Part shown: piece by piece, positions 9,021 through 28,218 of the stretch
Layout: every line of letters begins with the position of its first letter
How positions within the stretch are numbered: position 1 is the stretch's first letter
Assembly (NCBI RefSeq): GCF_900129875.1
Contig: NZ_FQXC01000005.1
Location: 186,001-250,000 of the forward strand
Source of the DNA: Marivita hallyeonensis
GTDB taxonomy: Bacteria > Pseudomonadota > Alphaproteobacteria > Rhodobacterales > Rhodobacteraceae
Direction of reading: 5' to 3'
DNA: 64,000 nt
Notes under the pieces: generated by a model
What the model saw: only the letters and a program-made list of their open reading frames with translations
What the model was told of the DNA's origin: nothing
The model's database searches: none
Translations under genes and position numbers: made by a program

Positions 9021-9045
9021 CCTTTCCTGCGCTGGAGACGTGCCC

Positions 9046-9582: not shown

Positions 9583-9586
9583 GGCC

Positions 9587-11900: not shown

Positions 11901-13208
11901 CTACAGGCCCGGCAGCCACGTCGCCAGGATCGGGAACAGGATCAAAAGGCCCACGACCATCAGCGAGCAGAAGATGAATGGCATGGCTGCACGGTAGATC
12001 TCGCGCATGGTGGTCTCTGCCGGGGCCACCCCCTTCATCACGAACAACAGCAATCCGAAAGGTGGCGTTGTAAAGCTGATCTCAAGCGCCAGCAGCATGA
12101 TCAGCCCGAACCAGATCGGATCGAATCCAAGTGTCTGCGCCAGCGGGAAAAAGATCGGCACGGTCAGAAGCATGATCGAGATCTGTTCCATGAACATGCC
12201 GAGCACCAGCAGCACACCGAACATTACCAACAGCATCATGGTCGGGTCCAGGTCGAACCCTGTGGCCCAGTTGATCAGGCCACGTGATGCGCCAGAAAAC
12301 GCGAGAAGCTGACTGAACGTGGCCGAGCCGAACACGATCAGGTACGCCATCAGCGTCACACGCAACGCACCTCGCACGGATTTCTTGATCGCGTCCCATG
12401 TGAGGCACCGGTAGATCGCGGCGAGGATGAGCACACCCAATGCGCCAAACGCCGCCGCTTCTGAGGGTGTGACGATCCCGTTGATCATCATGATGACAAT
12501 CGCGACCATGAGCCCGATCATCGGGACAACATCCCGCATCAGGATGCCGAGCTTTTCGCCCGCACTCATTGGGGTGACGTCGTAGGGCGGCGCCGCGTCG
12601 GGATCCAGCCGGGTCTGGATGTAGATCGTCGCAATATAAAAGGCGGCAAGGATCAGGCCGGGGATCACCCCGGCGATCAGCAAAGCGCCCACGTCGATCT
12701 TGGCCAGCGTGGCCAGCAGCACGGCAAGCGCCGAGGGCGGGATGATGATGGCCAGCCCCCCGGTGCCAAGGATTGGGCCGATGGACATATGGCTTTTGTA
12801 CCCGCGCCGCTTCATCTCGGGTACCATCAGCGACCCGAGAAGCGCGGTCGACCCCATCGAAGACCCGGACAGCGTCGAAAACCCGGTACCGCCAAGGACC
12901 GTGACATAGCTAAGGCGTCCAGGCAGTCGACCCAGCAGCTTGTCTATGGCGGAAAACATGCGGCCGCCCAAACCGGTCTGGAAAAAGATCTCTCCCATCA
13001 GCAGGAAAAGCGGAATGGGCACCAGTGCGAAGATCGTCAGCGATCCCCAGCCATTGTTCAAAAGCTGGCTGATCCCCCGCTCGCCCCCCATGAAGACCCA
13101 TGCTCCAAGGATGTTGGCGGCCAGAAACGCCAGTGCCACCGGCATTCCGAGCGCCATGAGAAACATGATGCTGCCAACCAGCAGGCCAAGGGCTTCGTAC
13201 CATTCCAT
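11901..13208 (-). CDS. dctM: TRAP transporter large permease, DctM family (system 2)
   Basis: Large membrane subunit of 435 residues and about twelve helices. The motifs are FSTLSGSSMGSTALLGSLMVPE, GPILGTGGLAIIIPPSALAVLLA, GIVTPSEAAAFGALGV and the late SFTTPPFGLLLFVMKGVAP. Its ATG overlaps the dctQ stop by one base (TAATG). It is the last gene of the minus-strand gntR-leuC-leuD-dctPQM operon and converges on the BASS gene across a 67-base gap with no clear shared terminator. Confidence 0.92.
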   Translation of the reverse strand: MEWYEALGLLVGSIMFLMALGMPVALAFLAANILGAWVFMGGERGISQLLNNGWGSLTIFALVPIPLFLLMGEIFFQTGLGGRMFSAIDKLLGRLPGRLSYVTVLGGTGFSTLSGSSMGSTALLGSLMVPEMKRRGYKSHMSIGPILGTGGLAIIIPPSALAVLLATLAKIDVGALLIAGVIPGLILAAFYIATIYIQTRLDPDAAPPYDVTPMSAGEKLGILMRDVVPMIGLMVAIVIMMINGIVTPSEAAAFGALGVLILAAIYRCLTWDAIKKSVRGALRVTLMAYLIVFGSATFSQLLAFSGASRGLINWATGFDLDPTMMLLVMFGVLLVLGMFMEQISIMLLTVPIFFPLAQTLGFDPIWFGLIMLLALEISFTTPPFGLLLFVMKGVAPAETTMREIYRAAMPFIFCSLMVVGLLILFPILATWLPGL

Positions 13209-13714
13209 TATTCGTGAATCCCCGCCTCGCCGGAATGCATCAGTTCCGGACCAAAGACGAACCGGGCGAATTCAATCGCCATCACGGAAAACGCGATGGG
13301 GAAGGTGATCGTGAGAAGCCACCGGGGATAGTAGTAGGCCCGCACATCGAAATCGTTGCGTTCGATATTGGTCAGGAAGAGGTCCAGCCCGTACCACGCA
13401 AGGATCAGGGACACCGCCACACATGCCAGCGCGACAGCGCGGCTGACGATCCGGCGCAGGGCTGAGGGCAGGGCGGCTGTCACCAGTTCAATGTGCACAT
13501 GCCCCTTTTCGCGCACCAGCCACGGCGCGCCGAGCATGGTCATGTAGAGGATGCCGTATTCGGCGGAGGTAAACAGCCATGCGAAGGGCTGCATCCCCAA
13601 ATTGCGCATCAGGACGGATACGACCACCGACACCATCAGCCAGACGAGCGTCACGGCAGCGATGAAAGCCATCGTGTACAGAAGGGCGTCGTAGGCCCGG
13701 ATCACGGCGCGCAT
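13208..13714 (-). CDS. dctQ: TRAP transporter small permease, DctQ family (system 2)
   Basis: Four-helix membrane subunit of 168 residues. Hydrophobic stretches fall near residues 12-36, 51-68, 89-110 and 131-153. The EKGHVHIELV segment carries the DctQ signature (KGxHIxV-like). It follows the dctP gene after a stem-loop and is directly fused by overlap to dctM, the normal layout for a tripartite system. Confidence 0.9.
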   Translation of the reverse strand: MRAVIRAYDALLYTMAFIAAVTLVWLMVSVVVSVLMRNLGMQPFAWLFTSAEYGILYMTMLGAPWLVREKGHVHIELVTAALPSALRRIVSRAVALACVAVSLILAWYGLDLFLTNIERNDFDVRAYYYPRWLLTITFPIAFSVMAIEFARFVFGPELMHSGEAGIHE

Positions 13715-13736
13715 GAGGTATTCCGTCCGAATTGGA

Positions 13737-13763
13737 AGGGCCGGAACGTGCGGTTCCGGCCCT
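13737..13763 (-). promoter_or_regulatory. Strong stem-loop between dctP and dctQ (system 2)
   Basis: AGGGCCGGAAC (13737-13747) pairs over 11 bases with GTTCCGGCCCT (13753-13763) around a five-base loop. On the transcribed minus strand the following bases are CTTCCAATTC, so the T-run is poor. It may act as an mRNA-stabilising or partial-termination element that sets receptor-to-permease ratio. Confidence 0.7.
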
Positions 13764-13769
13764 ATGGTC

Positions 13770-14783
13770 TTACTGGTCTGCTGCCGGATCGTAGAACTTG
13801 CCGATCAGGTCGTCATAGCTCGCGACCGACTGCGGTTCTGCTTCCATCAGCTCTTTCATCCGTGCCCAAGTGGTCTCGCGTGCAGCGGCAAGATAGTTGG
13901 CGCGCGCCTCACCTTCGAGTTCCACAACCTGCATGCCAGCCGCGTCGAGCGCTGCGAAGTCCTCATCGCGCTTCCCGCGCAGGGCGTTCACGCTGTCGAT
14001 CTCATGCTGGATCGCGGTGTCCTGCAGAATCTGCTTGGCTTCGTCACTCAAGCCGTTCCACGACTCAAGGTTCACGATCACCCCAAGGTCGGTCGAGAAG
14101 AAGCACGGCTCGATCCGGTAGTTGAGGAACTCGTTCCACTTGAGGTCGATGAGGCCAATCTGGGTCCAGCCTGTCGCATCCACGACGCCGTTCTGCAGCG
14201 CCGAATAGACTTCGCCCGTGGGCAGGTCGATGACCTGTGCTTCGAGGTAGTTCGTAAAGAACGCGTTATACACTGCGTTGCCGCGCAGACGCAGACCGTC
14301 CACTTCGAGGTTGCCATCGGCGTCGAAGGACGGCTCGTTCCGCGTCCAAAGGTTGTAGCACACGCCGCTGTCGAACCAGCCAAGGTACTTGAGACCCATG
14401 CGTTCCTGATGGATCTGATCGATCAGGTCGATGCCGCCGTTTTCGCGGGTTTCGATGGCCGTCAGGTTTGACGCCACAAGGGCGTCTTTCTCTGGCAGCG
14501 CGCCGCCATAGAACGACCCGGGCGTATAGACCATGTCCACGATGCCGTCGCGTACCGCGTCGGGCTGCTGGAACATGCCGATGGCTTCGGGGCCGCCCCG
14601 GACTTCGATCTGGATCACGCCTTCGCCCGCTTCGTTTACCTTGTCCACGAAGGACAGGAAGCTTTGCGTGTAGATCAGCGTTTCTGGAAACGCATGGACT
14701 GCGGTGATCGTTTCTTCCGCGTGGGCCACCGAGCCCAGCATCACGCCGCCCGCAAGGCAGCCTTTCAACAGGTTCATATTCAT
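13770..14783 (-). CDS. dctP: TRAP transporter solute-binding protein, DctP family (system 2)
   Basis: Periplasmic receptor, 337 residues, with a signal peptide ending near SVAHA, residue 22. Core features include the IGMFQQPDAVRDGIVDMVYTPG segment, the ESW/EPSFDAD linker with VDGLRLRGNAVYN, and PTGEVYSALQNGVVDATGW, the family block before the ligand-clamping loop. AGGAGGA stands seven bases before the ATG at 14783, a strong initiation signal consistent with high receptor expression. Its place directly after leuCD suggests the ligand is the pathway's carboxylate substrate. Confidence 0.93.
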   Translation of the reverse strand: MNMNLLKGCLAGGVMLGSVAHAEETITAVHAFPETLIYTQSFLSFVDKVNEAGEGVIQIEVRGGPEAIGMFQQPDAVRDGIVDMVYTPGSFYGGALPEKDALVASNLTAIETRENGGIDLIDQIHQERMGLKYLGWFDSGVCYNLWTRNEPSFDADGNLEVDGLRLRGNAVYNAFFTNYLEAQVIDLPTGEVYSALQNGVVDATGWTQIGLIDLKWNEFLNYRIEPCFFSTDLGVIVNLESWNGLSDEAKQILQDTAIQHEIDSVNALRGKRDEDFAALDAAGMQVVELEGEARANYLAAARETTWARMKELMEAEPQSVASYDDLIGKFYDPAADQ

Positions 14784-14823
14784 GGTTAGTTCCTCCTACA
14801 CCCTTCGGCCGGTCTGGCCTTTG

Positions 14824-15471
14824 CTACTGCGAACCGGTGTCCCGCCCCGCGCTCCTGAAGTTGGTCTGTTGGACTGGTATGGCCCACGGTGTGTCCTTGA
14901 CATATTGCGTGCGAAACTCCGCGATGGCCGCTTTGTGGTGTTGGGTCAGGTCGATGTCGTCCCACCCGTTGATCAGTTTCTGTTGCCAGACATCGTCAAG
15001 CGTGAAATCGAGCACGCTGTCGCCGACTCGCATCGTCCGGTCCGTCAGGTTGATACTGACCTCGACCGGGCCTGCGCTCAACTGAGAGATCGCGGCGTCG
15101 ACCTCCGCCTCCGGCACGCGGGCGGGCAAGAGGCCGTTGTTCACAGCGTTGCTGGCAAATATGTCACCAAAGCTTGGTGCAACGACCGCACGGATGCCGA
15201 AATCGACAAGCGCATAGACCGCGGCCTCGCGTGACGATCCGCTTCCGAAGTTGCGGCGCGAAATCAGGATGCTGGCGTCCGGCGTGCTATTCAACGGGAA
15301 ATCGGCAATCGGATTGCCGTTGTTGTCCGTGCGCAGGTCGTAAAGCAGGAAATCCCCGTAGCCCTCGGACCGTGGCGTCGACATGAAGCGCGCCGGGATC
15401 AGCTGGTCGGTGTCCACGTTCTCGCGGTCCAGTGCAACCGCCAGACCCGTATGCTGGGACCATCCGGTCAT
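14824..15471 (-). CDS. Aconitase-superfamily hydratase small subunit, LeuD type
   Basis: Small (swivel-domain) subunit, 215 residues, of an isopropylmalate-isomerase-type hydro-lyase. The text NVDTDQLIPARFM near the start, RRNFGSGSSREAAVYALVDFGIRAVVAPSFGDIF in the middle and NAVNNGLLP are LeuD hallmarks; the GSGSSRE serine binds substrate in the family. The start at 15471 overlaps the large-subunit stop by four bases (ATGA). Sitting in a GntR-controlled catabolic operon with a TRAP importer argues against leucine synthesis and for hydration of an imported or derived unsaturated di-acid, such as a substituted maleate; that is inference. Confidence 0.88.
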   Translation of the reverse strand: MTGWSQHTGLAVALDRENVDTDQLIPARFMSTPRSEGYGDFLLYDLRTDNNGNPIADFPLNSTPDASILISRRNFGSGSSREAAVYALVDFGIRAVVAPSFGDIFASNAVNNGLLPARVPEAEVDAAISQLSAGPVEVSINLTDRTMRVGDSVLDFTLDDVWQQKLINGWDDIDLTQHHKAAIAEFRTQYVKDTPWAIPVQQTNFRSAGRDTGSQ

Positions 15472-16868
15472 GCGACCTTCCTCCCATTCAGCAGGTCGCG
15501 CACATCGGTGAGATGCCCCGTCACGGCGGCAGCGGCGACCATGGCGGGTGACATCAGATGCGTCCGCGCACCCCGTCCCTGGCGGCCACGGAAGTTTCGA
15601 TTGGTCGTGGACGCGCAGCGCTTTCCCGGTTCGACATGATCGCCGTTCATCGCCACGCACATCGAACATCCGGACCCGACCCAATCGAGGCCCGCGTCGA
15701 CAAAGATGCGATCCAACCCTTCGGCCTCGGCCTGGGCCTTGACTTGTCTTGATCCCGGCGACACCAGTCCCGGCACTTTCGCGCGACGCCCGGACAGCAC
15801 GGCCGCCGCAGCGCGCAAGTCTTCGATCCGGGCATTTGTGCAGGACCCGATAAACACCTGATCGACCGCGATATCGGTCAGCGCGCGACCCGGGGTCAGA
15901 CCCATGTACTCAAGCGCATTGCGCGCGCGCTCTGCTGTGTTTCCACTCATTTTCGAGGGGTCGGGAACTGTCGCCGTCACAGGCAAAGCGTCTTCCGGTG
16001 TGGTGCCCCAGGTGACAATCGGGGCAATCTCGGCGGCGTCGAGGGTCACCTCGGTATCGAAAGTGGCGTTCCCATCCGACGGCAAGTCAGACCAGGTTTC
16101 AATCGCCCGGTCCCAATCGGCGCCGCGCGGCGCGAAAGGACGGTCTTTCAGATAGGCAAAGGTTGTCTCATCCGGCGCGACCATGCCAAACCGCGCGCCG
16201 CCTTCGATCGACAGATTGCAAAGTGTCATGCGCCCTTCCATCGACAAGGCCCGCACTGCGGCCCCCGTGTATTCGATGGCGTGACCGCGCCCTCCGTCTG
16301 CGCCCAGTTTCGCAATCCACGCGAGCGCGAGGTCCTTGGCCGTGACCCCCGGTCCAAGCTGTCCCGTCACGTTGATCCGCATTGCCTTGGGTTTGGTTTG
16401 CCAGATGGTTTGCGTCGCCAGCACATGCGCCACTTCGGTTGCGCCGATGCCAAAGGCCAAGGCCCCGAATGCGCCATGTGTCGATGTGTGGCTGTCACCG
16501 CAGTTGATCAGCAAACCGGGCAGTGTGATCCCCTGTTCCGGTCCAATCACATGCACAATGCCCTGCCGAGGGTCGTCAAGGCCGAAGCATTTGATGCCAT
16601 GTGTCCGCGTGTTTTCTTCAAGCGTCGCAATCATCCGCGCGATGGCTTTGGTCGCGGGTCCGCCGCGTGTTGGAGCATAGTGGTCTGCCACACCGAAGGT
16701 CAGGCCCGGCTCCGCAACCGGAACGCCCCGCTCCGCGATCTTGGCAAAGGCGTGATGAGAGCCTTCGTGGACAAGGTGACGATCCACCCACAAGAGGCTT
16801 GTCCCGTCGTCCCGGCGGAGGATTTCGTGCGCATCCCACAGTTTGTCGAGAAGACGCCGACCCGTCAT
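15468..16868 (-). CDS. Aconitase-superfamily hydratase large subunit, LeuC type
   Basis: Large catalytic subunit, 466 residues, carrying the [4Fe-4S] cluster. The ligating cysteines are in NCGDSHTSTHGAFGALAFG, in FIGSCTNARIEDL and in GSGCSMCVAMNGD. The last pair is spaced C-x-x-C as in LeuC/homoaconitase. The length equals bacterial LeuC. I chose the ATG at 16868 (MTGRRLLDKLW), whose four-base overlap with the gntR stop gives ATGA coupling; the longer frame is upstream read-through. Dimethylmaleate hydratase of clostridial nicotinate breakdown is built the same way, which matters because a 2,3-dimethylmalate-lyase-like gene lies at 22703. True substrate unknown. Confidence 0.9.
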   Translation of the reverse strand: MTGRRLLDKLWDAHEILRRDDGTSLLWVDRHLVHEGSHHAFAKIAERGVPVAEPGLTFGVADHYAPTRGGPATKAIARMIATLEENTRTHGIKCFGLDDPRQGIVHVIGPEQGITLPGLLINCGDSHTSTHGAFGALAFGIGATEVAHVLATQTIWQTKPKAMRINVTGQLGPGVTAKDLALAWIAKLGADGGRGHAIEYTGAAVRALSMEGRMTLCNLSIEGGARFGMVAPDETTFAYLKDRPFAPRGADWDRAIETWSDLPSDGNATFDTEVTLDAAEIAPIVTWGTTPEDALPVTATVPDPSKMSGNTAERARNALEYMGLTPGRALTDIAVDQVFIGSCTNARIEDLRAAAAVLSGRRAKVPGLVSPGSRQVKAQAEAEGLDRIFVDAGLDWVGSGCSMCVAMNGDHVEPGKRCASTTNRNFRGRQGRGARTHLMSPAMVAAAAVTGHLTDVRDLLNGRKVA

Positions 16869-17659
16869 AACGCTGCTCCGCCAATCACGGGTTCCCAATG
16901 CCGCGCTTCGCCGGCACCGACACGCGCCAGATCCATTTCGAGGCGGAACAGGTCTGGCCGGTAGAGCGCCGACAGATGCTCGACCCCGCGTCCTCTTGCA
17001 TCGCGCACAATGCGCTGCACGAACAGAAGCGGTGATCCGACCGAAATCTCCAGCGCTTCCGCGACGTCCGGTGTGGCAAGAGCGGCGGTGACACTTTGAT
17101 GCGCGCTCTCAACGCTCACCCCGCTGCGTTCCAGGAGTCGGAACAGCGGTTGGGTGGCGAGATCGGCCTCGTCGTAGTTGATTGCGATGTCTTTCGGGAC
17201 ATAGGTCGTCAGATGCGAAAACGGCTGGCCGCCCGATGACCGGACCCTCACGGCCTTTTGTACTTCCGCACCGTCGGCGAGTTCCAGCGCCTTGGCGACT
17301 GTCGGTGGCGCGCTGTCGTACGAAAAGGACAAAAGACGTGCGGTTGTCGTACGGTCCATTTCGACAAGATGCGGGATCAGTGTCGCGAAATCTGCAGACA
17401 GCTTCTGGCTTTCATGATCTTTTGCCCGCACCACTGAGCCGGCACCGGTTTTCTTCTCAATCCAGCCATCTGCCGCCAGTGCCTCAAGGGCACGCCGCAC
17501 CGTGATGCGCGAGACGTCGAACATGTCTGCAAGCTTGTGTTCGCCAGGCAGGCGCGTTCCGTCCTTGAAAACGCCATTTGAAATTTCGTCGCGCAGCAAC
17601 AGGTAAACCCTGCGGGCCTTACCGCCTTCTGGAAGTCCGGAATGCGCGATGATCGTCAC
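16865..17659 (-). CDS. GntR-family transcriptional regulator, HutC/UTRA type
   Basis: DNA-binding regulator, 264 residues. The N-terminal winged helix covers about residues 12-80 (YLLLRDEISNGVF, PGEHKLADMFDVSRITVRRAL, the classic GntR text). The C-terminal UTRA ligand-binding domain runs from about residue 105 to 255, ending LSALYRPDLFRLEMDL. The start is GTG at 17659 with no strong ribosome binding site. It is the first gene of the leuCD-dctPQM operon and divergent from the tautomerase-hyuBA operon, so it probably controls both directions from the intergenic operator and senses a pathway acid. Confidence 0.92.
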   Translation of the reverse strand: MTIIAHSGLPEGGKARRVYLLLRDEISNGVFKDGTRLPGEHKLADMFDVSRITVRRALEALAADGWIEKKTGAGSVVRAKDHESQKLSADFATLIPHLVEMDRTTTARLLSFSYDSAPPTVAKALELADGAEVQKAVRVRSSGGQPFSHLTTYVPKDIAINYDEADLATQPLFRLLERSGVSVESAHQSVTAALATPDVAEALEISVGSPLLFVQRIVRDARGRGVEHLSALYRPDLFRLEMDLARVGAGEARHWEPVIGGAAL

Positions 17660-17741
17660 GAAAGCGCGGCCCCTGTTGCTTGCTGATCCTTGCCGCCGCT
17701 GTGGCGTTGCGACGAAGGTTCCTGTTGGATTGGCCTTTCAA

Positions 17742-17760
17742 TATACCAAAACCTGTTATA
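17742..17760. promoter_or_regulatory. Imperfect inverted repeat, candidate GntR operator
   Basis: TATACCA (17742-17748) and TGTTATA (17754-17760) form an imperfect palindrome with six of seven positions pairing around a five-base centre, in the 132-base region between the divergent gntR and tautomerase genes. Length and AT-rich half-sites suit a GntR dimer. The right arm overlaps a TTATAT that could serve as a -10 box for the rightward operon. Confidence 0.45.
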
Positions 17761-17791
17761 TGAAAAGTGCAGATTTTGCGGGGAGGATCGT

Positions 17792-18352
17792 ATGCCAATC
17801 GTGGAAGCGCATATCCTTGAAGGGTATAGCGCCACTGAGAAATCCCGGCTGACTTCCGCTCTCACAAATGCGATTCGCTTTGTCGTTCCCGCGCCGGATG
17901 TAGCCATAACCGTGATGCTGCATGAATACCCGTCCGAGGCCTACGCCCGCGGTGGGCAGCATCGCCAGCCCGCTCCGGCGCTGCCCGACCCATCCACGAT
18001 TGTCCGAGACTACCTGACCTCGATGGAGGCGCGCGATCTGGAGGCCGCACAGTCCATGCTGCGGGAGGATTTCCAAATGGTCTTCCCTGCAACCGATCCG
18101 ATGACGCGATTGTCCGAACTGATCGAATGGTCCAAGGCCCGTTACCGATCCGTGAAAAAGACCTACGACGGCTTTGATGCGCTGCACGGCAATGGCGTCG
18201 CGGTTGTTTATGCCCGCGGTACGCTACACGGCGAATGGCTGGATGGTACGCCGTTTGACGGCATCCGCTTCATCGACCGTTTTGAAATTTCGGAAGGCAA
18301 GATCGTACGTCAGGACGTCTGGAACGACATGGGAGAGGTGCGAGCGCAATGA
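17792..18352 (+). CDS. Tautomerase (4-oxalocrotonate-type) fused to SnoaL/NTF2-like domain
   Basis: A two-domain protein of 186 residues. After the initiator comes Pro2 (MPIVEAHILEG), which would become the N-terminal catalytic proline of a 4-oxalocrotonate-tautomerase fold. The text to about residue 55 (SATEKSRLTSALTNAI, then DVAITVMLHEYPSEAYARGG) matches that family. From about residue 65 to the end (TIVRDYLTSMEARDLEAAQSML, then GIRFIDRFEISEGKIV) it reads as an SnoaL-like/NTF2-fold domain. The start at 17792 has GGGGAGGA ahead; longer frames would bury the proline. It leads the operon and overlaps hyuB by four bases. It may isomerise an enol or unsaturated acid early in the pathway; the SnoaL half could be catalytic or binding. 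Confidence 0.78.
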   Translation: MPIVEAHILEGYSATEKSRLTSALTNAIRFVVPAPDVAITVMLHEYPSEAYARGGQHRQPAPALPDPSTIVRDYLTSMEARDLEAAQSMLREDFQMVFPATDPMTRLSELIEWSKARYRSVKKTYDGFDALHGNGVAVVYARGTLHGEWLDGTPFDGIRFIDRFEISEGKIVRQDVWNDMGEVRAQ

Positions 18353-20043
18353 CCGCTGCAATTGACCCGATCACACTGGCGGTTTTGGCCGGGCGCATGG
18401 AGCAGATCGCCGACGAGATGGATGCAACCCTGTTTCGCGCGGCTTTCAACCCTATCATCGCCGAGGCGCACGATGCCTCGCACGGCTTCTACCACGCGTC
18501 CTCGGGCGATACGCTGGTACAGGGCAAGTCCGGTCTACCGATCTTTGTCGGCGTCATGGCGTTTGCCGTTAAGGCGGTCATCGACAAGGCCGCCGAGGCG
18601 GGCGATCTGGCCGATGGGGATATCTACATCTTCAACGATGCCCATATGGGTGGGACTCACCTGTCGGACATGCGGCTTGTGCGACCCTACTTCCGAGACG
18701 GCCAGCTGTTCTGTTACCTGGCCAGTGTCGGGCATTGGCACGATGTCGGCGGTGCGGTGCCGGGGAACTACAACCCGTCCGCGACAGAGGCCTTTCAGGA
18801 GGCGTTCGTCCTGCCCCCGGTCAAACTGGCCAGCGGCGGAGTGATCCAGCAGGACATCATTGACATCCTCATGCGCAACACGCGCCTGCCGCAGTCGGCG
18901 ATGGGCGACCTGAATGGCCAGTTAGGCGCACTCGATCTGGGTGTGAAACGCCTTGATGAATTGCTGGATGAATACGGCGCCGAAACGGTTTCAGCCGCAC
19001 TCGACGCGCTGGGCGACAGGGCGGAGACACTCATGCGGTCCGAATTGTCCGGCCTGCCCGACGGGCGTTGGGAGGCCGTGGATTACCTCGACAATGACGG
19101 GATCACTGATGAGGCTTTGCCGATCAAAGTCGCGCTGGAAATCCATGGCGATCAGATGGTGCTTGATTTCGAGGGCACGGCTCCGGTGACGGCAGGTCCG
19201 GTGAACATTGCCTATCCGACAGCCGTGGCAACGGCCTATGTGGCGATCAAGCACATCTTCCCCGACCTGCCTGCCAATGCAGGCGTCATGCGCCCGATCG
19301 AAGTGCGGGTGCCGGACGGATCACTTCTCTCTGCCGAATTCCCCGCGCCTGTCGGGGGATACACCGAAACCATTTTGCGGATGATCGACGTGATCTTCAG
19401 CGCCGCGTCGCAAGCAGCCCCGGAGCGGGTGGTCGCCAACGCCTACGGCACGATCAATGCCCTTTCCATCGCCGGAAAGCGCGCGAACGGGCAGCGCTGG
19501 GTGATGTTCAGTTTTTACGGCGGTGGTCATGGTGGCAGCATCGAAAGCGACGGCCTGAACCACGGCAACGCGCCGATTTCCACCGCGACCATTCCCCCGA
19601 TGGAGATCCTCGAGGCGGCCTATCCGGTGATGTTCCGTCAATGGGCGCTGCGCCCCGACAGTGCAGGGGCGGGCCAGCATCGCGGCGGGCTTGGGGCGAC
19701 CTACGAGATCGAGGTGCTTGAGGAAAACGCTGAGGCATTCCTGTTCGGTGAACGTGGACGGTTCGCCCCTCAGGGGGTTCAGGGCGGCGGTGACGGGGCA
19801 ATGAACGTGTTTCACTTCGAACAGGCCAGCGGATGGGAGACGCCGCCGCTTGCGTCAAAAATGCTCGGGATCAAGCTAACCAAGGGACAGGCCGTCCGCC
19901 TCGACACACCGGGCGGAGGGGGGTACGGCCCAGCCTCGGACCGCGATCCGCAGCTCGTCGCGCGCGATGTGGCGCTCGGGTATCTGACCGCTGACCTTGC
20001 AACGGAACTCTACGGGTCTGCCTGGCAAGAGGTGTCCGCATGA
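18349..20043 (+). CDS. hyuB: Hydantoinase B/oxoprolinase family protein
   Basis: Subunit of an ATP-dependent ring-opening amidohydrolase of the N-methylhydantoinase/5-oxoprolinase/acetone carboxylase group, 564 residues. HyuB text is clear: DPITLAVLAGRMEQIADEMDATLFRAAFNPIIAEA at the start, GDIYIFNDAHMGGTHLSDM, GHWHDVGGAVPGNY with the metal-binding histidine/aspartate region, and a glycine-rich DTPGGGGYGPASDRDP end. It overlaps its neighbours by four bases at each end (ATGA), so HyuB and HyuA should be made together. The likely substrate is a cyclic imide, lactam or hydantoin, but 2-component HyuAB enzymes are too varied to say which. Confidence 0.92.
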   Translation: MTAAIDPITLAVLAGRMEQIADEMDATLFRAAFNPIIAEAHDASHGFYHASSGDTLVQGKSGLPIFVGVMAFAVKAVIDKAAEAGDLADGDIYIFNDAHMGGTHLSDMRLVRPYFRDGQLFCYLASVGHWHDVGGAVPGNYNPSATEAFQEAFVLPPVKLASGGVIQQDIIDILMRNTRLPQSAMGDLNGQLGALDLGVKRLDELLDEYGAETVSAALDALGDRAETLMRSELSGLPDGRWEAVDYLDNDGITDEALPIKVALEIHGDQMVLDFEGTAPVTAGPVNIAYPTAVATAYVAIKHIFPDLPANAGVMRPIEVRVPDGSLLSAEFPAPVGGYTETILRMIDVIFSAASQAAPERVVANAYGTINALSIAGKRANGQRWVMFSFYGGGHGGSIESDGLNHGNAPISTATIPPMEILEAAYPVMFRQWALRPDSAGAGQHRGGLGATYEIEVLEENAEAFLFGERGRFAPQGVQGGGDGAMNVFHFEQASGWETPPLASKMLGIKLTKGQAVRLDTPGGGGYGPASDRDPQLVARDVALGYLTADLATELYGSAWQEVSA

Positions 20044-22097
20044 GCAAGATGGTGGGCGTGGACGTGGGAGGCACCTTCACTGACGTGTTCGTGCTGGATG
20101 AGGCAACCGGCACAGCCGAAGTGGCCAAGGTGCCCACGACGCGCCCGGATCAGTCGGGCGGGTTTCTGGACGGGATCGGCCAGCAGGTCGACGACCTTTC
20201 CACAGTCGCTGCAGTGGTGCATGGCACCACGGCGGGTACAAATGCTTTGCTTGAACGCAAGGGCGCGAAGATCGGCGTGATCACCACACACGGGCTCCGC
20301 GACGTTCTGGAAATGCGCCGCCGTGACAGACCCCGCACATGGGGTCTCCGCGGCGATTTCGAACCGGTCGTGCCGCGCAATTTGCGCCTGGAGGTGCCCG
20401 AACGCACTTTGGCCGACGGAACGATCCGCACGCCTGTCGATCTGGACGCGGTGAAGGCAGCGGCGCAGGAGTTGATCGATGCCGACTGCAAAGCTGTCGC
20501 CATCCTGTTGGCCAATGCGTATGCCAACCCCGAAAACGAAGCCAAGGCAGTCGAAGCCGTCCGCGCCATGTGGCCGAACGATCATGTGAGCTGTTCGTCG
20601 GAAATTCTGCCGGAGATCCGTGAATTCGAGCGGTTCTCGACCACGGCGCTGAACGCCTATCTGCAACCCGAGGTTTCCGGCTACATCAACCGCCTGGACC
20701 GGGCGCTGACCAAAGGCGGGTTCGACGGCGAATTCATGATCGTGCAGTCGAATGGCGGCGTGATGGGCACGGACACCGCGTGCCGCTTGCCCATCCGAAC
20801 AGCGCTGTCCGGTCCCGCGGCTGGTGTCATCGCCGCAGGGCACATCGCAAAGACAGCCGGTTTTGAGAACGTCATCACGGGCGACATGGGCGGGACGAGC
20901 TTCGACGTGGCGCTGATTGCCAAGGGGCAGTCGATGCTGTCGCCGCAGACCTCCATCGACTTCGGCATGGTGGTCCGCAATCCGATGATCGAGATCACGA
21001 CGATTGGCGCGGGTGGCGGCTCTATCGCTTGGGTCGATAAGGGCGGCCTGCTGAACATTGGCCCCGAAAGCGCAGGATCGACGCCCGGGCCTGTCGCTTA
21101 TGGGCAGGGCAATGATCGACCCACGGTGACGGATGCCAATGTCGTGCTCAGCCGGATTGATCCGGAAAGTCCGATTGGCGGAAAACTGGACCGTTTGGAC
21201 GTGGATGCGGCTGCGACGGCCATCGATACCCATGTCGGGTCTAAACTGGGACTGAGCACCGTCGAAGCGGCTGAAGCGATCCTTCGCGTGGCGAATTCGC
21301 GGATGGCGGGGGCAATCCGGCTTGTCAGCATCGAGCGCGGGTTTGACCCAAAACGCTTTGCCTTCATGCCCTTTGGTGGTGGCGGCGCTTTGCACACCGG
21401 TGCGATCTTGAAAGAGGTCGGGATCGGCAGCGCAATCGTTCCACGCTATCCGGGCGTGACTAGCGCAATGGGGTGTGTCATCGCCGACATGCGGCAGGAT
21501 TTCGTTCAGACGATCAACACTTTGACGGCGACCCTCGACACCGATGCGCTGCGAGATGTGATGCAGCGGCACATCGACGGCGGGATGGCCTTGCTCAACG
21601 CGGCCCGGTCCCGTTTCGAGGCGCGGGACATCGTGGTTGAGCTGGACATGGCCTATGTCGGTCAGACACATACAGTGGCCGTGCCGTTGCCCGTGACGGT
21701 CGATGGCACGACTGTGGCTGCGCCCACCATCGCGGATATCGGTGCGGCGTTCGACGCTGCGTACCAAGCCACGTATGGACGTCTGCTGAAAAACGGCACC
21801 CGCCGGGTGATGAATCTGCGTACTGCGGTGATCGGGCGGCGTCCCAAGTTTGACCTGACAACGCTCGCCCCAAAAGGCGGCGGCGTGGATGCGGCAAAAA
21901 CCGGGACGCGTCAGGTGCATTTCGGCGATACCTGGCACGAGACCACCATCTACAAGCGCCTCGATCTGCCTGTCGGCGCTGAGATATCTGGCCCTGCGAT
22001 CCTCGTGCAGCCGGACACCACGGTGTTGGTGGACCCCGGCTTGTCCGCGCGGGTGGACACCTACGGCAACACGATCATCACAAGGGACGAGGAGTGA
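20040..22097 (+). CDS. hyuA: Hydantoinase A/oxoprolinase family protein
   Basis: ATP-binding partner of HyuB, 685 residues, of the actin-like ATPase fold. Phosphate-1 motif VDVGGTFTDVFVLDE stands at residues about 5-19, followed by VHGTTAGTNALLERKGAKIGVITTHGLRDVLEM, then QSNGGVMG, SGPAAGVIAAGHIA and the phosphate-2 motif GDMGGTSFDVALI near residue 281. Activation of the amide oxygen by ATP permits opening of a stable ring. The gene runs directly from hyuB and is followed after three bases by the isochorismatase-fold gene, recalling the N-methylhydantoin to N-carbamoylsarcosine route where a similar pair is followed by an amidase of that fold. Confidence 0.93.
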   Translation: MSKMVGVDVGGTFTDVFVLDEATGTAEVAKVPTTRPDQSGGFLDGIGQQVDDLSTVAAVVHGTTAGTNALLERKGAKIGVITTHGLRDVLEMRRRDRPRTWGLRGDFEPVVPRNLRLEVPERTLADGTIRTPVDLDAVKAAAQELIDADCKAVAILLANAYANPENEAKAVEAVRAMWPNDHVSCSSEILPEIREFERFSTTALNAYLQPEVSGYINRLDRALTKGGFDGEFMIVQSNGGVMGTDTACRLPIRTALSGPAAGVIAAGHIAKTAGFENVITGDMGGTSFDVALIAKGQSMLSPQTSIDFGMVVRNPMIEITTIGAGGGSIAWVDKGGLLNIGPESAGSTPGPVAYGQGNDRPTVTDANVVLSRIDPESPIGGKLDRLDVDAAATAIDTHVGSKLGLSTVEAAEAILRVANSRMAGAIRLVSIERGFDPKRFAFMPFGGGGALHTGAILKEVGIGSAIVPRYPGVTSAMGCVIADMRQDFVQTINTLTATLDTDALRDVMQRHIDGGMALLNAARSRFEARDIVVELDMAYVGQTHTVAVPLPVTVDGTTVAAPTIADIGAAFDAAYQATYGRLLKNGTRRVMNLRTAVIGRRPKFDLTTLAPKGGGVDAAKTGTRQVHFGDTWHETTIYKRLDLPVGAEISGPAILVQPDTTVLVDPGLSARVDTYGNTIITRDEE

Positions 22098-22100
22098 CAC

Positions 22101-22706
22101 ATGGCACATGAGATCGACCCAAAACGCACCGCTCTCCTGACCATCGATCTGCAAAACGACTTTCTGCATCCCGAAGGTGCCTACGGCCGTGCCGGACAGA
22201 CGGCTGAGGCAATCGCGGCCTTACCCGCCCGGATCAAACCCGTGGTCGATGCGCTGCGGACCAAAGGCGGGACGTACATCAGCGCACAGTTCACGTTGGT
22301 GCCTGGACCGGGGGAGGAACCACTGATCGCGCCGCACCTGAAAGAGCTGCGACCGTTCCTTGGCAAGGGCGACTTCGCACCGGGGAAATTCGGCCATGCG
22401 CTGGTCAATACACTTGCTCCGGCGGATTACACGGTCGAGAAGGTGGCCTATTCCGCCCTCTACCAGACCCGGTTGGAATACATTCTCCGGGCGTTGAACA
22501 TCGATACGCTGATCATCGGGGGGATTGTGACCAATGGCGGTGTCGCAAGCACCGTACGTGACGCCCATCTACGCAACATTCACACGATACTGCTTTCGGA
22601 CGGTTGCGCAGCGTTCAAGCAAGAGGTGCATGACGCCACACTCGTTTCCCTCGGTTCGATTTGTCCGAACGTTACCTGCGCCGAAATGGTGGACTTGCTG
22701 TCATGA
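22101..22706 (+). CDS. Isochorismatase-fold hydrolase lacking the catalytic cysteine
   Basis: Cytoplasmic alpha/beta protein of 201 residues. Family text LLTIDLQNDFLHPEGAYGR gives the acidic residue D16; K114 lies in TVEKVAYSAL. The position normally holding the nucleophile (T-[ND]-x-C-V) reads T144-N-G-G147-V, so glycine replaces cysteine. Amidases of this fold (N-carbamoylsarcosine amidase, nicotinamidase, maleamate amidase) need the cysteine; true isochorismatases do without it. The neighbours predict an amidase, the active site does not. It may cleave an enol ether or otherwise act by acid-base catalysis. Overlaps the next gene by four bases. Confidence 0.85.
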   Translation: MAHEIDPKRTALLTIDLQNDFLHPEGAYGRAGQTAEAIAALPARIKPVVDALRTKGGTYISAQFTLVPGPGEEPLIAPHLKELRPFLGKGDFAPGKFGHALVNTLAPADYTVEKVAYSALYQTRLEYILRALNIDTLIIGGIVTNGGVASTVRDAHLRNIHTILLSDGCAAFKQEVHDATLVSLGSICPNVTCAEMVDLLS

Positions 22707-23572
22707 ACCTGAAAACGCGCCTTTCGTCGAATGAGATCCTGGTCGCGCCAGGCGTTTTTGACGCGCTGACCGCCGCGCTTGCCGAACAGGCTGGGTTCGA
22801 AGCGCTTTACCTCAGCGGCGCCGCAGTGGCCTATACCCGGCTCGGCCGCCCGGATATCGGTCTGACATCGGTCAGCGAGATGGCGGACACCATGGCGTTG
22901 ATCCGGGATCGCGTAGACCTGCCGGTCATCATCGATGCCGACACAGGTTTCGGGAACGCCTTGAACGCACAGCGCACGATGCGTGTGTACGAACGGGCTG
23001 GGGCAAATGCGTTGCAAATCGAAGATCAGACCTACCCCAAGCGCTGCGGGCACCTTGCGGACAAGTCTCTCATTCCGAAGGCGGAAATGGTCGGCAAGAT
23101 CGCCGCGATGGCCGATGCGCGGGCGCGTGAAGAAACGCTGATCATCGCGCGTACGGATGCGGTGGCTGTAGACGGGTTTGACGCAGCGATGGACCGGGCG
23201 GACGCCTATGTCGCGGCCGGGGCAGATGTTCTGTTTATCGAAGCTTTGCGTTCTGTTGATGAAATGAAAACGGTGACAGAACGGTTTAAAGACCGCGTAC
23301 CTTTGCTGGCGAACATGGTTGAAGGTGGAGCAACGCCGATTCAGAGCGCCGAAGATTTGCAAGCGATGGGTTTTTCCGTCGTGATCTTTCCCGGCGGCAT
23401 CGTGCGTGCGCTGGCCCGCACGGCTGAAGCGTATTTCGGCAGCCTGAAGGCAAACGGCAGCAACCGCCCGTTTGCAGACCGCATGTTCGATTTCGGCGGG
23501 TTGAACGACCGACTTGGCACAGATGCCATGCTGGCTGCGGGCAAGCGCTACGAACACGGGGGCGGCGACTGA
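22703..23572 (+). CDS. Isocitrate lyase/PEP mutase-family C-C lyase
   Basis: Mg-dependent lyase of 289 residues in the family of methylisocitrate lyase, 2,3-dimethylmalate lyase, oxaloacetate decarboxylase and PEP mutase. Seen are APGVFDALTAALAEQAGFEALYLSGAAVA at the N-terminus, metal-site DADTGFGN (D78, D80), IEDQTYPKRCGHL with C115 of the KRCGH catalytic loop found in true lyases, and ARTDA. The KRCGH loop argues for a C-C bond cleavage giving pyruvate or glyoxylate plus an acid. It starts at 22703, overlapping the previous stop. With the LeuCD-type hydratase it could form a hydration-then-cleavage pair. Confidence 0.9.
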   Translation: MNLKTRLSSNEILVAPGVFDALTAALAEQAGFEALYLSGAAVAYTRLGRPDIGLTSVSEMADTMALIRDRVDLPVIIDADTGFGNALNAQRTMRVYERAGANALQIEDQTYPKRCGHLADKSLIPKAEMVGKIAAMADARAREETLIIARTDAVAVDGFDAAMDRADAYVAAGADVLFIEALRSVDEMKTVTERFKDRVPLLANMVEGGATPIQSAEDLQAMGFSVVIFPGGIVRALARTAEAYFGSLKANGSNRPFADRMFDFGGLNDRLGTDAMLAAGKRYEHGGGD

Positions 23573-23575
23573 TCC

Positions 23576-24967
23576 ATGCCCGTTTTGCCGCCCCCATCGA
23601 CTGGTTTCGATCTTGACGTGCCGATCTTAATCGTCGGCGCGGGTGCATGTGGCTTGGTGGCCGCTCTTTCCGCAACGGATGCCGGTGCAGAGGTGCTGGT
23701 GGTCGAGGCGGATGCGGCACCTTCGGGGTCAACCGCGTTGTCTGCGGGGCTCATCCCTGCCGCCGGAACGCGATTTCAAATCGACGCCGGGATCGACGAC
23801 AATGCTCGTCTGTTTGCTCAGGACATCCAGAAGAAGGCGAAGGGCGAGAATCCACAGGCCTTGGTCGATTTGCTTGCCGATCGTTCGGGGGATGTGATCG
23901 AATGGCTGGCGGACCGGTTCGATCTTCCCTTCTCGGTGGTGACCGATTTCGACTATCCCGGCCATTCCCGCCGCCGCATGCATGGACTTCCCACCCGCGC
24001 CGGACGCGAGTTGGTCGACCGATTGCGAAGCGCCTGCGAAGCGCAGGGGATCGATATCATCTGCAATCGCCGCGCAACGTCGCTTTTTGTCGAAGGCGAC
24101 CGTATCCTGGGCATCCAGTTGGAAAGCCCGACCGGCACGGAAACCTTGGGGTGCAGCGCGCTGATCCTCGCGTGCAACGGGTTCGGCGGGAACCGCGACA
24201 TGGTCCGCGAGTACATGCCTGAGATCGAAAATGCAGTTTGGTTCGGCCATGACTTTAATCAAGGCGATGCCGTCACCTGGGGCGACGCGCTGGGCGCGGA
24301 AACGCTGCATCTGAGCGCGTATCAGGGCCACGGAAATGTCGCGCATCCGCAGGGCATACTGATCACCTGGGCGGTGATCACGCAAGGCGGGGTGCAGGTG
24401 AACCTGAGGGGAGGGCGCTTCTGGGACGAGAGCCAGGGCTATTCCGAAGCCGCACGCGCAGTTCTGGCCCAGCCAGATAGCGTTGCTTGGACGATTTTTG
24501 ACAGCCGTATCGCGGCCATCGCGCGCCAATTCCAGGATTTCAAGGACGCTGAGGCCGTCGGTGCGATCCGTACCGCAGAGACGCTTGCAGACCTCGCAAA
24601 CGTTACCAACCTGCCGGAAGACGCGCTGGCAACGACGCTAAACGCGCTTCCGACGGATGGAGAAGACGTGTTCGGACGCCAATTTTCTGCCCCCCCGCTT
24701 CGATCACCGTATTGCGCGGTCAAGGTGACCGGCGCCTTGTTTCACACGCAAGGGGGGCTCAAGATTGATGACACCGCGCGGGTCATCCGCAAGAGCGGCG
24801 GCGTTTTCCCGAACCTGTTTGCGGCGGGTGGGGCTGCTGTGGGCGTCTCGGGATCAGGCGACAGCGGATATCTTTCAGGAAACGGACTTCTGGCCGCAAC
24901 GGTCCTCGGGCACATCGCCGGAGCTGAAGCGGCGTACGACATGAAAAAGGAGATGCCAAATGCTTGA
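23576..24967 (+). CDS. FAD-dependent oxidoreductase, fumarate reductase/3-ketosteroid dehydrogenase type
   Basis: Flavoprotein, 463 residues, of the FAD_binding_2 group (fumarate reductase, succinate and ketosteroid dehydrogenases). Rossmann motif [29 protein letters not shown] begins near residue 17; [17 protein letters not shown] follows, and the C-terminal FAD contact reads [26 protein letters not shown]. No signal peptide or heme motifs, so it is probably a soluble cytoplasmic dehydrogenase or reductase of an alpha,beta C-C bond. It starts three bases after the lyase gene and overlaps the acyl-CoA dehydrogenase by eight bases. Confidence 0.87.
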
Positions 24968-26174
24968 TGCATCACACTCGGGCCACGGCCCATCGCTTGC
25001 GAAATTCGACTGGGAAGACCCGCTTCACCTGCGGGCTGCGCTTGAAGAAGAAGAGCGCATGATCGCAGACAGCGCTGCTGCTTATGCGACGGACAAGCTG
25101 CTGCCGCGGGTGTCCGACATGTATCTGAACGAAGGCGTTGCGCCCGAGATCTTTGCGGAGATGGGCGAGATGGGTCTGCTCGGCGTGACCATCCCCGAAG
25201 ACTTCGGCGGGCTGGGCGCGGGCTATGTGAGCTACGGCCTTGTCGCGCGCGAGGTTGAACGGATCGACAGCGGCTTCCGGTCGATGATGAGCGTGCAAAG
25301 CTCTCTCGTCATGTACCCGATCCACGCCTACGGCACCGAAGAGCAACGTCGGAAATACCTGCCCGGACTGGCGGCCGGTACGTTGATCGGGTGCTTTGGC
25401 CTGACCGAACCCGATGCCGGGTCCGATCCCGCGGGCATGAAGACCGTCGCGCGCAAAACGGACGGCGGCTATGTTCTGAACGGTGCGAAAATGTGGATCT
25501 CGAACAGCCCGATTGCGGATGTGTTCGTCGTCTGGGCCAAGTCTGACGCGCACGGCGGCAAGATCCGGGGTTTTGTTCTCGACAAAGGGATGAAGGGCCT
25601 CTCTGCACCGAAGATCAATGGCAAGCTGTCCCTTCGCGCGTCCATCACGGGTGAGATCGTGATGGACAACGTGGAAGTCGGCGAAGACGCTCTGCTTCCC
25701 GGTGTTGAGGGCCTGAAGGGTCCGTTCGGCTGCCTCAATCGCGCGCGCTATGGCATCGCCTGGGGCGTGATGGGCGCAGCCGAGGATTGTTGGCATCGTG
25801 CGCGTCAATATGGTCTGGACCGGACGCAATTCGGTCGCCCGCTGGCACAGACGCAATTGTTCCAGAAGAAGCTCGCCGATATGCAGACCGAGATCACACT
25901 CGGTTTGCAGGCGGCATTGCAGGTGGGTCGGATGCTTGACGCGGGCACTGCCGCGCCAGAGGCCATCAGCCTGATCAAGCGCAACAATTGCGGCAAGGCG
26001 TTGGACATCGCCCGTCACGCGCGCGACATGCATGGTGGCAATGGCATCATGGCCGAATACCATGTCATGCGCCACGCGCAGAACCTCGAAACGGTGAACA
26101 CCTACGAAGGCACGCATGATGTGCATGCGTTGATCCTTGGTCGTGCGCAAACGGGACTGCAGGCGTTTTTCTGA
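24960..26174 (+). CDS. Acyl-CoA dehydrogenase, glutaryl-CoA dehydrogenase-like
   Basis: FAD enzyme of 404 residues that introduces a double bond into an acyl-CoA, and in the glutaryl-CoA subgroup also decarboxylates it. Features in order: [20 protein letters not shown] (GcdH-like N-terminus), [59 protein letters not shown], and the C-terminal [15 protein letters not shown] with catalytic base E383. Pairing with a class III CoA-transferase, overlapped by one base, is the classic glutarate arrangement, so the pathway may pass through glutarate or a close relative. The cognate ETF is not in the window. Confidence 0.93.
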
Positions 26175-27328
26175 TGCCGGCACCGCTCGAAGGTCTCAAG
26201 GTTCTCGAATTGGCCCGCATCCTTGCCGGGCCAATTGTCGGACAGACGCTGGCTGACCTTGGCGCAACCGTTATCAAGGTCGAAAGCCCCAAAGGCGACG
26301 ATACGCGCAGCTGGGGCCCCCCGTTCATCGAACGCGAGGGCGAGGATGCGCCGTCCGCCGCGTATTTCTACAGCTGCAACCGGGGTAAGTACTCTGTCAC
26401 GGCGGACCTTGCGACGGAAGAGGGCAGGGCATTCGTGACCGATCTCGCCCGCGACGCGGATGTGTTGATCGAGAACTTCAAGGTGGGCGGGCTCGCGAAA
26501 TACGGTCTGGACTATGCCAGCTTGTCCAACGCAAACCCGCGATTGGTGTATTGTTCAATCACGGGGTTCGGACAGACCGGCCCCTACGCTGACCGAGCGG
26601 GATACGACTACCTTGTTCAAGGCATGTCGGGTCTCATGTCGATCACCGGCGATCCCAACGGCGAGCCGCAGAAAGTCGGCGTTGCCGTGACAGACATCTA
26701 CACCGGGCTCTATTCCGTCATCGCGATCCAAGCTGCGTTGACCGCGCGCGAAAAGACCGGAAAAGGCCAGCATATCGACATGAGCCTTTTGGATGCCGGC
26801 ACCGGCTCTTTGGCCAATCAGGCGATGAACTTTCTTGCAACGGGTCAGTCGCCCAAACGAATGGGAAACCAGCATCCAAACATCGTACCCTACGAGGTGT
26901 TCCCGGTCTCCGACGGCGATATCATCATCGCGGCGGGCAACGATCGCCAGTTTCAGGGTCTATGCGAGGTGCTTGGCCGACAGGACCTTGCCACCGTTCC
27001 CGACTATGAAACCAACGCAGGCCGTGTCAAAAACCGCGAGCTCTTGGTGCCGCTTCTGAAAAATGAGACAGCCAGTTGGACGAAGTCCGACCTGCTCGCG
27101 GCATTGAAAGGACAGAAAGTGCCCGCATCGCCGATCAACACGGTCGAAGAGGTCTTCTCCGATCCCCAGATCGCTCACCGCGAGATGCAGATCACTCCCG
27201 AAGGCATCCCAGGCGTCCGTACCCCCATTACCTTCAGCGACGCCGACCTCGCCCTCACCAAATCCGCGCCACTTCTTGGCGCCCATACCGAGGAGGTGCG
27301 CCAGAGGGGGTGGTTCATTGGCGGCTAA
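26174..27328 (+). CDS. CaiB/BaiF family (class III) CoA-transferase
   Basis: Transfers CoA between acids, 384 residues. Text at the start (LEGLKVLELARILAGPIVGQTLADLGATVIKVE) is diagnostic, D174 in VTDIYTGLYS is the family's catalytic aspartate that forms the mixed anhydride, and GKGQHIDMSLLDA follows as usual. Next to a glutaryl-CoA-dehydrogenase-like gene, the nearest known role is succinyl-CoA:dicarboxylate CoA-transferase (glutarate type). The start overlaps the previous stop by one base (TGATG). It ends the eight-gene operon; only 97 bases separate it from the convergent iclR-type gene. Confidence 0.92.
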   Translation: MPAPLEGLKVLELARILAGPIVGQTLADLGATVIKVESPKGDDTRSWGPPFIEREGEDAPSAAYFYSCNRGKYSVTADLATEEGRAFVTDLARDADVLIENFKVGGLAKYGLDYASLSNANPRLVYCSITGFGQTGPYADRAGYDYLVQGMSGLMSITGDPNGEPQKVGVAVTDIYTGLYSVIAIQAALTAREKTGKGQHIDMSLLDAGTGSLANQAMNFLATGQSPKRMGNQHPNIVPYEVFPVSDGDIIIAAGNDRQFQGLCEVLGRQDLATVPDYETNAGRVKNRELLVPLLKNETASWTKSDLLAALKGQKVPASPINTVEEVFSDPQIAHREMQITPEGIPGVRTPITFSDADLALTKSAPLLGAHTEEVRQRGWFIGG

Positions 27329-28211: not shown

Positions 28212-28218
28212 TACATCC

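Follow-up and report, generated by a model that had tools for sequence, protein, structure and literature searches.

A widely conserved proteobacterial gene module combining HyuAB, a hydratase and a C-C lyase, with hematinic acid as a candidate substrate

The 64,000-nucleotide stretch of Marivita hallyeonensis DNA analysed here, which we call the window, contains a block of 14 genes that brings together a LeuCD-type hydratase, a HyuAB-type ring-opening enzyme, a PrpB/PEPM-type C-C lyase and a tripartite ATP-independent periplasmic (TRAP) importer. That this block is a real and widely conserved module, undescribed as far as we have searched, is well supported. Its enzyme families and key residues point to the catabolism of a five-membered cyclic imide that bears a carboxylate, with hematinic acid and/or its dihydro form as the most likely compound, a reading to which we assign a probability of about 0.35-0.37. 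What is read directly from the sequences is the set of genes, their conservation, the families of the enzymes and their key residues; every reaction and the substrate are predictions built on these.

A module of two divergent operons

All 14 open reading frames were confirmed in the window. Their order and strands are those given in an earlier note made from the sequence alone, and Pfam matches agree with its family names for 14/14 of them. They form two operons, gntR-leuC-leuD-dctPQM on the minus strand and tautomerase/SnoaL-hyuB-hyuA-isochorismatase-lyase-flavoprotein-glutaryl-CoA dehydrogenase (GCDH)-CoA transferase on the plus strand. As the note had proposed, these diverge from a control region of 132 bp (17660-17791) between gntR and the tautomerase/SnoaL gene. 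Its further statement that overlaps of 1-8 bases couple nearly all genes is slightly generous: of the 12 within-operon junctions, eight are overlaps of 1-8 bp and two are gaps of 3 bp; dctQ/dctP and dctP/leuD are separated by 55 and 40 bp. These junctions take into account corrected starts for leuD (14824-15471, an internal ATG), leuC (15468-16868) and the tautomerase/SnoaL gene (17792-18352).

Conservation was followed in three sets of loci: 31 from a scan of a genome collection with the tautomerase/SnoaL protein, eight plasmid loci chosen from the best 30 of 633 records, and 30 cut around matches to the isochorismatase homologue. The last come from 33 distinct places, leaving out the window's own locus and two Tistrella-like genomes (G260, G033). 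Counting the window's own genome, that homologue matches in 26/385 genomes of the class (E up to 1e-30) and 8/398 of the phylum (E up to 1e-25). Counted with thresholds, the isochorismatase homologue, hyuA, hyuB, the lyase and a hydratase stand together in 29/31, 7/8 and 19/30 loci of the three sets, respectively. Co-conservation of both operons elsewhere, which the earlier note had chosen beforehand as its test, is thus found. The first set has two misses: the stretch of L004 starts with the tautomerase gene, and L034 is a contig of 5.9 kb from which the core is absent. Gene order is mostly kept over these 31 loci, apart from a rearrangement in L032 and the coreless L034. Cluster carriers span from Rhodobacterales to Azospirillum, Neorhizobium and Paraburkholderia. 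The arrangement is no chance neighbourhood, as a query with a single gene also brings up the other genes of the block in many genera.

In Tistrella the pathway is split. Plasmid pTM2 carries gntR-hyuB-hyuA-isochorismatase-GCDH-CoA transferase-leuC-leuD, and the Tistrella-like genome G162 has a cluster whose GCDH and CoA transferase share 97-100% identity with the pTM2 proteins. On another contig of G162 lies gntR-LIV-PrpD-lyase-tautomerase/SnoaL-flavoprotein-two racemase-family genes-PrpD. This half-pathway (L141, 7919-14931) contains two PrpD homologues and no hyuBA, the hyuBA-GCDH operon being on a different contig. Its paired Asp/Glu-racemase-family proteins (L141, 12135-13591) have counterparts in L077 (14497-15923). 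By eye, what we take to be the usual catalytic Cys positions look replaced in both pairs, which may be Cys-less. Genes of the molybdenum-hydroxylase (xanthine-dehydrogenase) family lie near two further copies, annotated in one (L081, 22143-24573) and present as similar frames in the other (L091, 16741-19950).

Hydration and C-C cleavage

The cluster LeuC (15468-16868) and LeuD (14824-15471) exceed the cut-offs of the leuC and leuD models, and isopropylmalate activity is thus possible. The earlier note had made its catabolic role depend on a further leuCD in the genome, and one is present (G000:C13), including the strongest Aconitase match and 57% (LeuC) and 39% (LeuD) identical to the cluster pair. 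Because of this second pair, leucine synthesis would not be the purpose of the cluster genes. We reject it as their main role, the cluster pair being moreover co-conserved with hyuBA and the lyase. The hydratase is interchangeable between loci, being a bacterial LeuCD, a shorter DmdB/HacB-type LeuCD, with a small subunit that scores above the cut-off of the LeuD/DmdB family (152 vs 109 bits), or a member of MmgE/PrpD. The LeuCD/DmdB and PrpD hydratase families act on 2-alkylmaleates or methylaconitate.

The lyase (22703-23572) finds its best model in PrpB (TIGR02317, 298 bits), and the catalytic motif KRCGH is present in 61/62 lyases, with KxCGH in the remaining one. At the positions that we take to line the methyl pocket of PrpB (Phe186, Leu234 and Pro236), the window lyase has Phe, Ile and Pro; 10/62 lyases fall outside the pocket pattern match. 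Such a pocket favours pyruvate as one product.

A glutarate branch in some lineages

The last two genes of the rightward operon suggest the other product. The cluster dehydrogenase (24960-26174) matches 4w9u at 704 bits, the Burkholderia-type GCDH 3gnc at 591 and the GCDH 1sir at 553. The earlier name of acyl-CoA dehydrogenase was right for the family, and GCDH is the more specific assignment. The GCDH active-site motifs R-S and NTYEGT occur in 7/7 cluster copies checked. Over all rows the pattern matches in 19/22, the misses being three non-cluster rows (L122, L123, L125). The cluster enzyme falls short of the NCBIfam GCDH model NF045552 (214 vs 470). A second GCDH-type copy in the genome is 80% identical to the first, and a dedicated role for the cluster copy is therefore plausible. 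GCDH is found somewhere in the genome of 16/16 cluster carriers tested, a count made without a background control. The class III CoA transferase (26174-27328) has as best of seven models the succinate-glutarate CoA-transferase (SUGCT) NF052585, at 546 bits.

In a midpoint-rooted tree of 21 rows, the five cluster GCDHs of the window type group in a single clade (support 100/98) made of the window, its close relatives Marivita cryptomonadis L006 and L008, L024 and L026. The Tistrella-type cluster GCDH lies across a 100/100 split from it. GCDH probably entered the cluster at least twice. In a third lineage (G247, L085) the CoA transferase is at the locus and GCDH on a different contig. Outside the window, clusters occur with or without the GCDH/CoA-transferase pair. 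We read glutarate as a likely end product, processed locally by some lineages, and consider an alkylmaleate-lyase logic with glutarate to be reasonably supported. Taken together, an interchangeable hydratase, the recruitment of GCDH with a glutarate-type CoA transferase and a PrpB-like lyase predict pyruvate plus glutarate.

Hematinic acid as candidate substrate

From pyruvate and glutarate one can work backwards: the lyase substrate would be 2-hydroxy-2-methyl-3-(2-carboxyethyl)succinate, and before hydration 2-methyl-3-(2-carboxyethyl)maleate. The imide of the latter is hematinic acid, 2-methyl-3-(2-carboxyethyl)maleimide, a compound set free by the oxidation of heme, chlorophyll and bilins. 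PMC7318184 and PMC10343206 report it from leaves, herbivore material, lake sediments and heme and chlorophyll after oxidation, and also that E. coli ChuS produces it. The mass balance closes, C8H9NO4 + 3 H2O giving NH3 + pyruvic acid + glutaric acid.

We propose that the carboxylate would be imported by TRAP, or by a LIV-type ATP-binding cassette (ABC) system in relatives. If the imide is saturated, the flavoprotein may desaturate the ring beside a carbonyl, and the tautomerase/SnoaL protein may move a double bond. The imide would then be opened by HyuAB with ATP, and the amide nitrogen taken off by the Cys-less isochorismatase homologue. Dialkylmaleamic acids are labile, and for this reason the latter step may proceed by acid-base catalysis aided by the neighbouring cis carboxylate. 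LeuCD would hydrate the resulting 2-methyl-3-(2-carboxyethyl)maleate, the PrpB-type lyase would cleave the hydrated product to pyruvate and glutarate, and the CoA transferase and GCDH would carry glutarate to crotonyl-CoA. The gene families agree with the earlier outline of import, ATP-dependent ring opening, hydration and cleavage to pyruvate and an acid, its reactions standing as predictions; glutarate as the acid, and the ring, are newly proposed here.

The same chemistry could start from another lactam or imide and pass through an alkylmaleate or a homoaconitate-like tricarboxylate, with the lyase yielding glutarate plus pyruvate or glyoxylate. We consider this unlikely though far from negligible: the glutarate and hydratase/lyase evidence leaves the ring unfixed, and homoaconitases are among the LeuCD-type models matched. 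Its glyoxylate version is opposed by the Phe-Ile-Pro reading of the presumed methyl pocket, which favours pyruvate, and also by the fact that we know of no natural imide for it.

Several points weigh against hematinic acid and the route proposed for it. The lyase stays under the PrpB equivalog cut-off (298 vs 354.4) and the CoA transferase under that of SUGCT (546 vs 750), and GCDH and SUGCT are at the locus in just 12/31 and 11/31, 1/8 and 1/8, and 1/30 and 2/30 loci of the three sets. The five-gene set is incomplete in 11/30 loci of the third set. Five of these are short only of a recognised hydratase (L090, L096, L097, L105 and L110, with a LeuD match in L097). As for the others, L084 is cut off by a contig edge ahead of hyuA, neither lyase nor hydratase is seen in L092 and L104, hyuBA is missing from L102 and L112, and the Tistrella-like L113 has its lyase elsewhere. 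The amidase-family Cys nucleophile is absent from 69/69 isochorismatase homologues, leaving the amide-removal step without direct precedent. A simple route has no necessary role for the tautomerase/SnoaL protein, nor for the racemase-like and additional PrpD proteins seen in relatives. In the flavoprotein, Tyr432 is three columns off the second Tyr of the ketosteroid dehydrogenase (KSTD)-like sequence discussed below, and the KSTD comparison draws on that one below-cut-off sequence. The solved protein nearest to DctP, 4mnc, binds an aromatic 2-oxo acid, and we know of no experiment on this clade and of no ligand-bound binding protein from it. Finally, the neighbourhoods of the copies showed no recognisable gene for heme, bilin or chlorophyll, most neighbours being judged by their first residues alone.

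Ring opening and nitrogen removal

HyuB (18349-20043) carries a Hydantoinase_B domain and HyuA (20040-22097) the Hydant_A_N and Hydantoinase_A domains; with all three in adjacent subunits, the pair belongs to the HyuAB family. Among solved structures HyuA is closest to the N-methylhydantoinase 7hk5, followed by 5-oxoprolinase and then by carboxylases, a ranking that disfavours a carboxylase role for HyuAB. The nearest NCBIfam equivalog is the caprolactamase CapAB (308 and 510 bits vs a cut-off of 1000). The latter match, together with the capacity of GCDH and SUGCT to handle glutarate, could speak for degradation of valerolactam, caprolactam or glutarimide to glutarate, with LeuCD and the lyase belonging to another pathway. 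We hold this to be highly improbable, as lyase and hydratase travel with HyuBA across lineages and neither an aminotransferase nor a semialdehyde dehydrogenase is among the 14 genes of the window.

The isochorismatase homologue (22101-22706) keeps Asp16 and Lys114, and TNGGVAS replaces its TNxCV motif. Asp16 and Lys114 are kept in 69/69 sequences, of which 68 have Gly and one has Ala in place of the Cys; these rows were picked by best match and may include those of L102 and L112, which are without hyuBA. The protein had been taken for an ordinary Cys amidase, a view that does not survive this count, and the role of an ordinary Cys half-amidase is rejected. In this the homologue is closer to EntB, PhzD and YecD than to the amidases. 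It may use acid-base chemistry to act on a labile maleamate, or have another role, and this is the weakest step of the route. Six annotated records name the Cys-less protein 'cysteine hydrolase', which its sequence does not support and which could be corrected.

Hydantoin or ureide catabolism has also to be weighed: HyuAB would open a hydantoin, the isochorismatase homologue would be a carbamoylase and the flavoprotein would oxidise the amino acid, with a racemase in some copies. N-methylhydantoinase as the best solved match of HyuA would agree with it, as would the Asp/Glu/hydantoin-racemase-family genes of the Neorhizobium cluster and of the Tistrella-like second module. We nevertheless find it quite unlikely, given an isochorismatase homologue without Cys and, as we infer, no need in such a pathway for LeuCD/PrpD, the C-C lyase or GCDH.

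The flavoprotein and the tautomerase/SnoaL protein

The FAD_binding_2 flavoprotein (23576-24967) matches the TcuA model at 171 bits, below its cut-off of 369. Aligned with flavocytochrome c3 (Fcc3), it has Tyr289 and Tyr432 at the positions of two fumarate-reductase arginines, Arg402 and Arg544, which we take, in Fcc3 numbering, to be the catalytic and carboxylate-binding residues. Both tyrosines are invariant in 53/53 flavoproteins, and we therefore reject a TcuA or fumarate-reductase role. The TcuA match would otherwise have suited a route from a pyridine carboxylate, citrazinate, through tricarballylate and cis-aconitate to isocitrate, which the lyase would split into glyoxylate and succinate. 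Besides the tyrosines, an ordinary aconitase would do for such a route and GCDH/SUGCT would be left unexplained, and we regard it as very unlikely.

Equivalents of KSTD residues Tyr318, Tyr487 and Gly491 were also looked for. Tyr289 is aligned with the first Tyr of one KSTD-like sequence (L146, 424 bits, below the family cut-off of 789), the comparison leaving out L144 (wrong frame) and L145 (in-frame stop). PMC5348764 describes how tyrosines and a glycine of KSTD activate a ring ketone for desaturation. This one comparison suggests that the flavoprotein may be a ring-carbonyl desaturase, acting for instance from succinimide to maleimide, which would suit dihydrohematinic acid. The tautomerase-SnoaL/DUF4440 fusion (17792-18352) starts with Met-Pro and matches PDB 9mua over its full length (220 bits); its solved relatives, 9mua and 9mup, are both titled 'Tautomerase'.

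Relation to known systems

In the literature searched, with most subscription journals outside its scope, we found no description of this gene combination, nothing on methylhydantoinase with succinimide, no paper on 9mua or on a fusion of tautomerase superfamily and SnoaL domains, and no bacterial hematinic-acid catabolism among the matches listed.

Parts of the module have clear parallels. Clostridial nicotinate fermentation uses dimethylmaleate hydratase (DmdAB) and 2,3-dimethylmalate lyase, and the proposed route would likewise join LeuCD-type hydration of a dialkylmaleate to PEPM/ICL-family cleavage into pyruvate and a carboxylic acid. However, no nicotinate reductase, enamidase or B12 mutase is among the 14 window genes, the predicted acid is glutarate rather than propionate, and the starting cyclic amide would be opened with ATP. 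The 2-methylcitrate cycle, with PrpD, an aconitase-type hydratase and PrpB, resembles the module in its PrpB-type lyase, its PrpD/aconitase-family hydratases and its pyruvate product. It differs in that here the predicted acid is one carbon longer, methylcitrate synthase is absent from the 14 genes and HyuAB is coupled. The two-subunit HyuA/HyuB architecture is that of N-methylhydantoinase, 5-oxoprolinase and caprolactamase, but unlike in known ATP-dependent hydantoinases and oxoprolinases it occurs here together with a hydratase and a C-C lyase, and it remains far under the caprolactamase cut-offs. With the maleamate amidohydrolase NicF, RutB and N-carbamoylsarcosine amidase, the isochorismatase homologue shares its family, the retained Asp and Lys and a gene 3' of the ring-opening genes, whereas the catalytic Cys is missing from 69/69 homologues. 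Glutarate catabolism by SUGCT and GCDH is mirrored by the last two genes of the operon, but the pair lies here inside a cyclic-amide operon, with another GCDH-type copy in the genome.

Few nitrogen pigments are as abundant as tetrapyrroles, and we know of no bacterial pathway that would explain what becomes, in soil and sea, of the one-ring products of their oxidation. A gene marker for the breakdown of these products would make the process measurable in genomes and metagenomes. It is conceivable, though doubtful, that the cluster is a first dedicated bacterial route mineralising the monopyrrolic maleimides that remain when heme, chlorophyll and bilins are oxidised, in which an ATP-driven imide hydrolase would have been grafted onto a dialkylmalate (methylcitrate-like) cleavage module. 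The lack of Cys in the upstream enzymes might then reflect the alkylation of thiols by maleimides. Many Alphaproteobacteria and some Betaproteobacteria have this catabolic block in common, and it deserves an assay whichever substrate it serves.

Transport, regulation and flanking genes

The importer genes of the window are dctM (11901-13208, DctM domain), dctQ (13208-13714, DctQ domain, overlapping dctM by 1 bp) and dctP (13770-14783), which encode the large permease, the small permease and the solute-binding protein; dctM adjoins the core in TRAP-type copies. TRAP prevails in most window relatives, and a LIV-type ABC importer is found in Azospirillum, Roseomonas, Neorhizobium, Variovorax and Paraburkholderia. 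TRAP genes were not found beside the core in L020-L023 and L025 (three Ruegeria, Sulfitobacter and an Aestuariivita metagenome-assembled genome); L023 has a DctP of 61% at the locus end.

The regulator (16865-17659) is of the Pfam GntR+UTRA type, and a homologue with at least 30% identity is present in 29/31 loci of the first set. Twelve-mers around CAAAACCTGTTATA are common to 13/22 control regions examined, many of them from close relatives and the count having no chance control. The control region of the window holds no inverted repeat with arms of at least 5 and a spacer of up to 8.

A 311-aa frame (10898-11833, plus strand) has no Pfam or NCBIfam match and may not be a gene; it lies 3' of the permease of a further TRAP set. 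Two such DctQ/DctM sets flank the cluster, at 9040-10894 (plus strand) and 27426-30245 (minus strand), both outside the protein set of the conservation analysis, and the right-hand one is accompanied by an IclR-type regulator.

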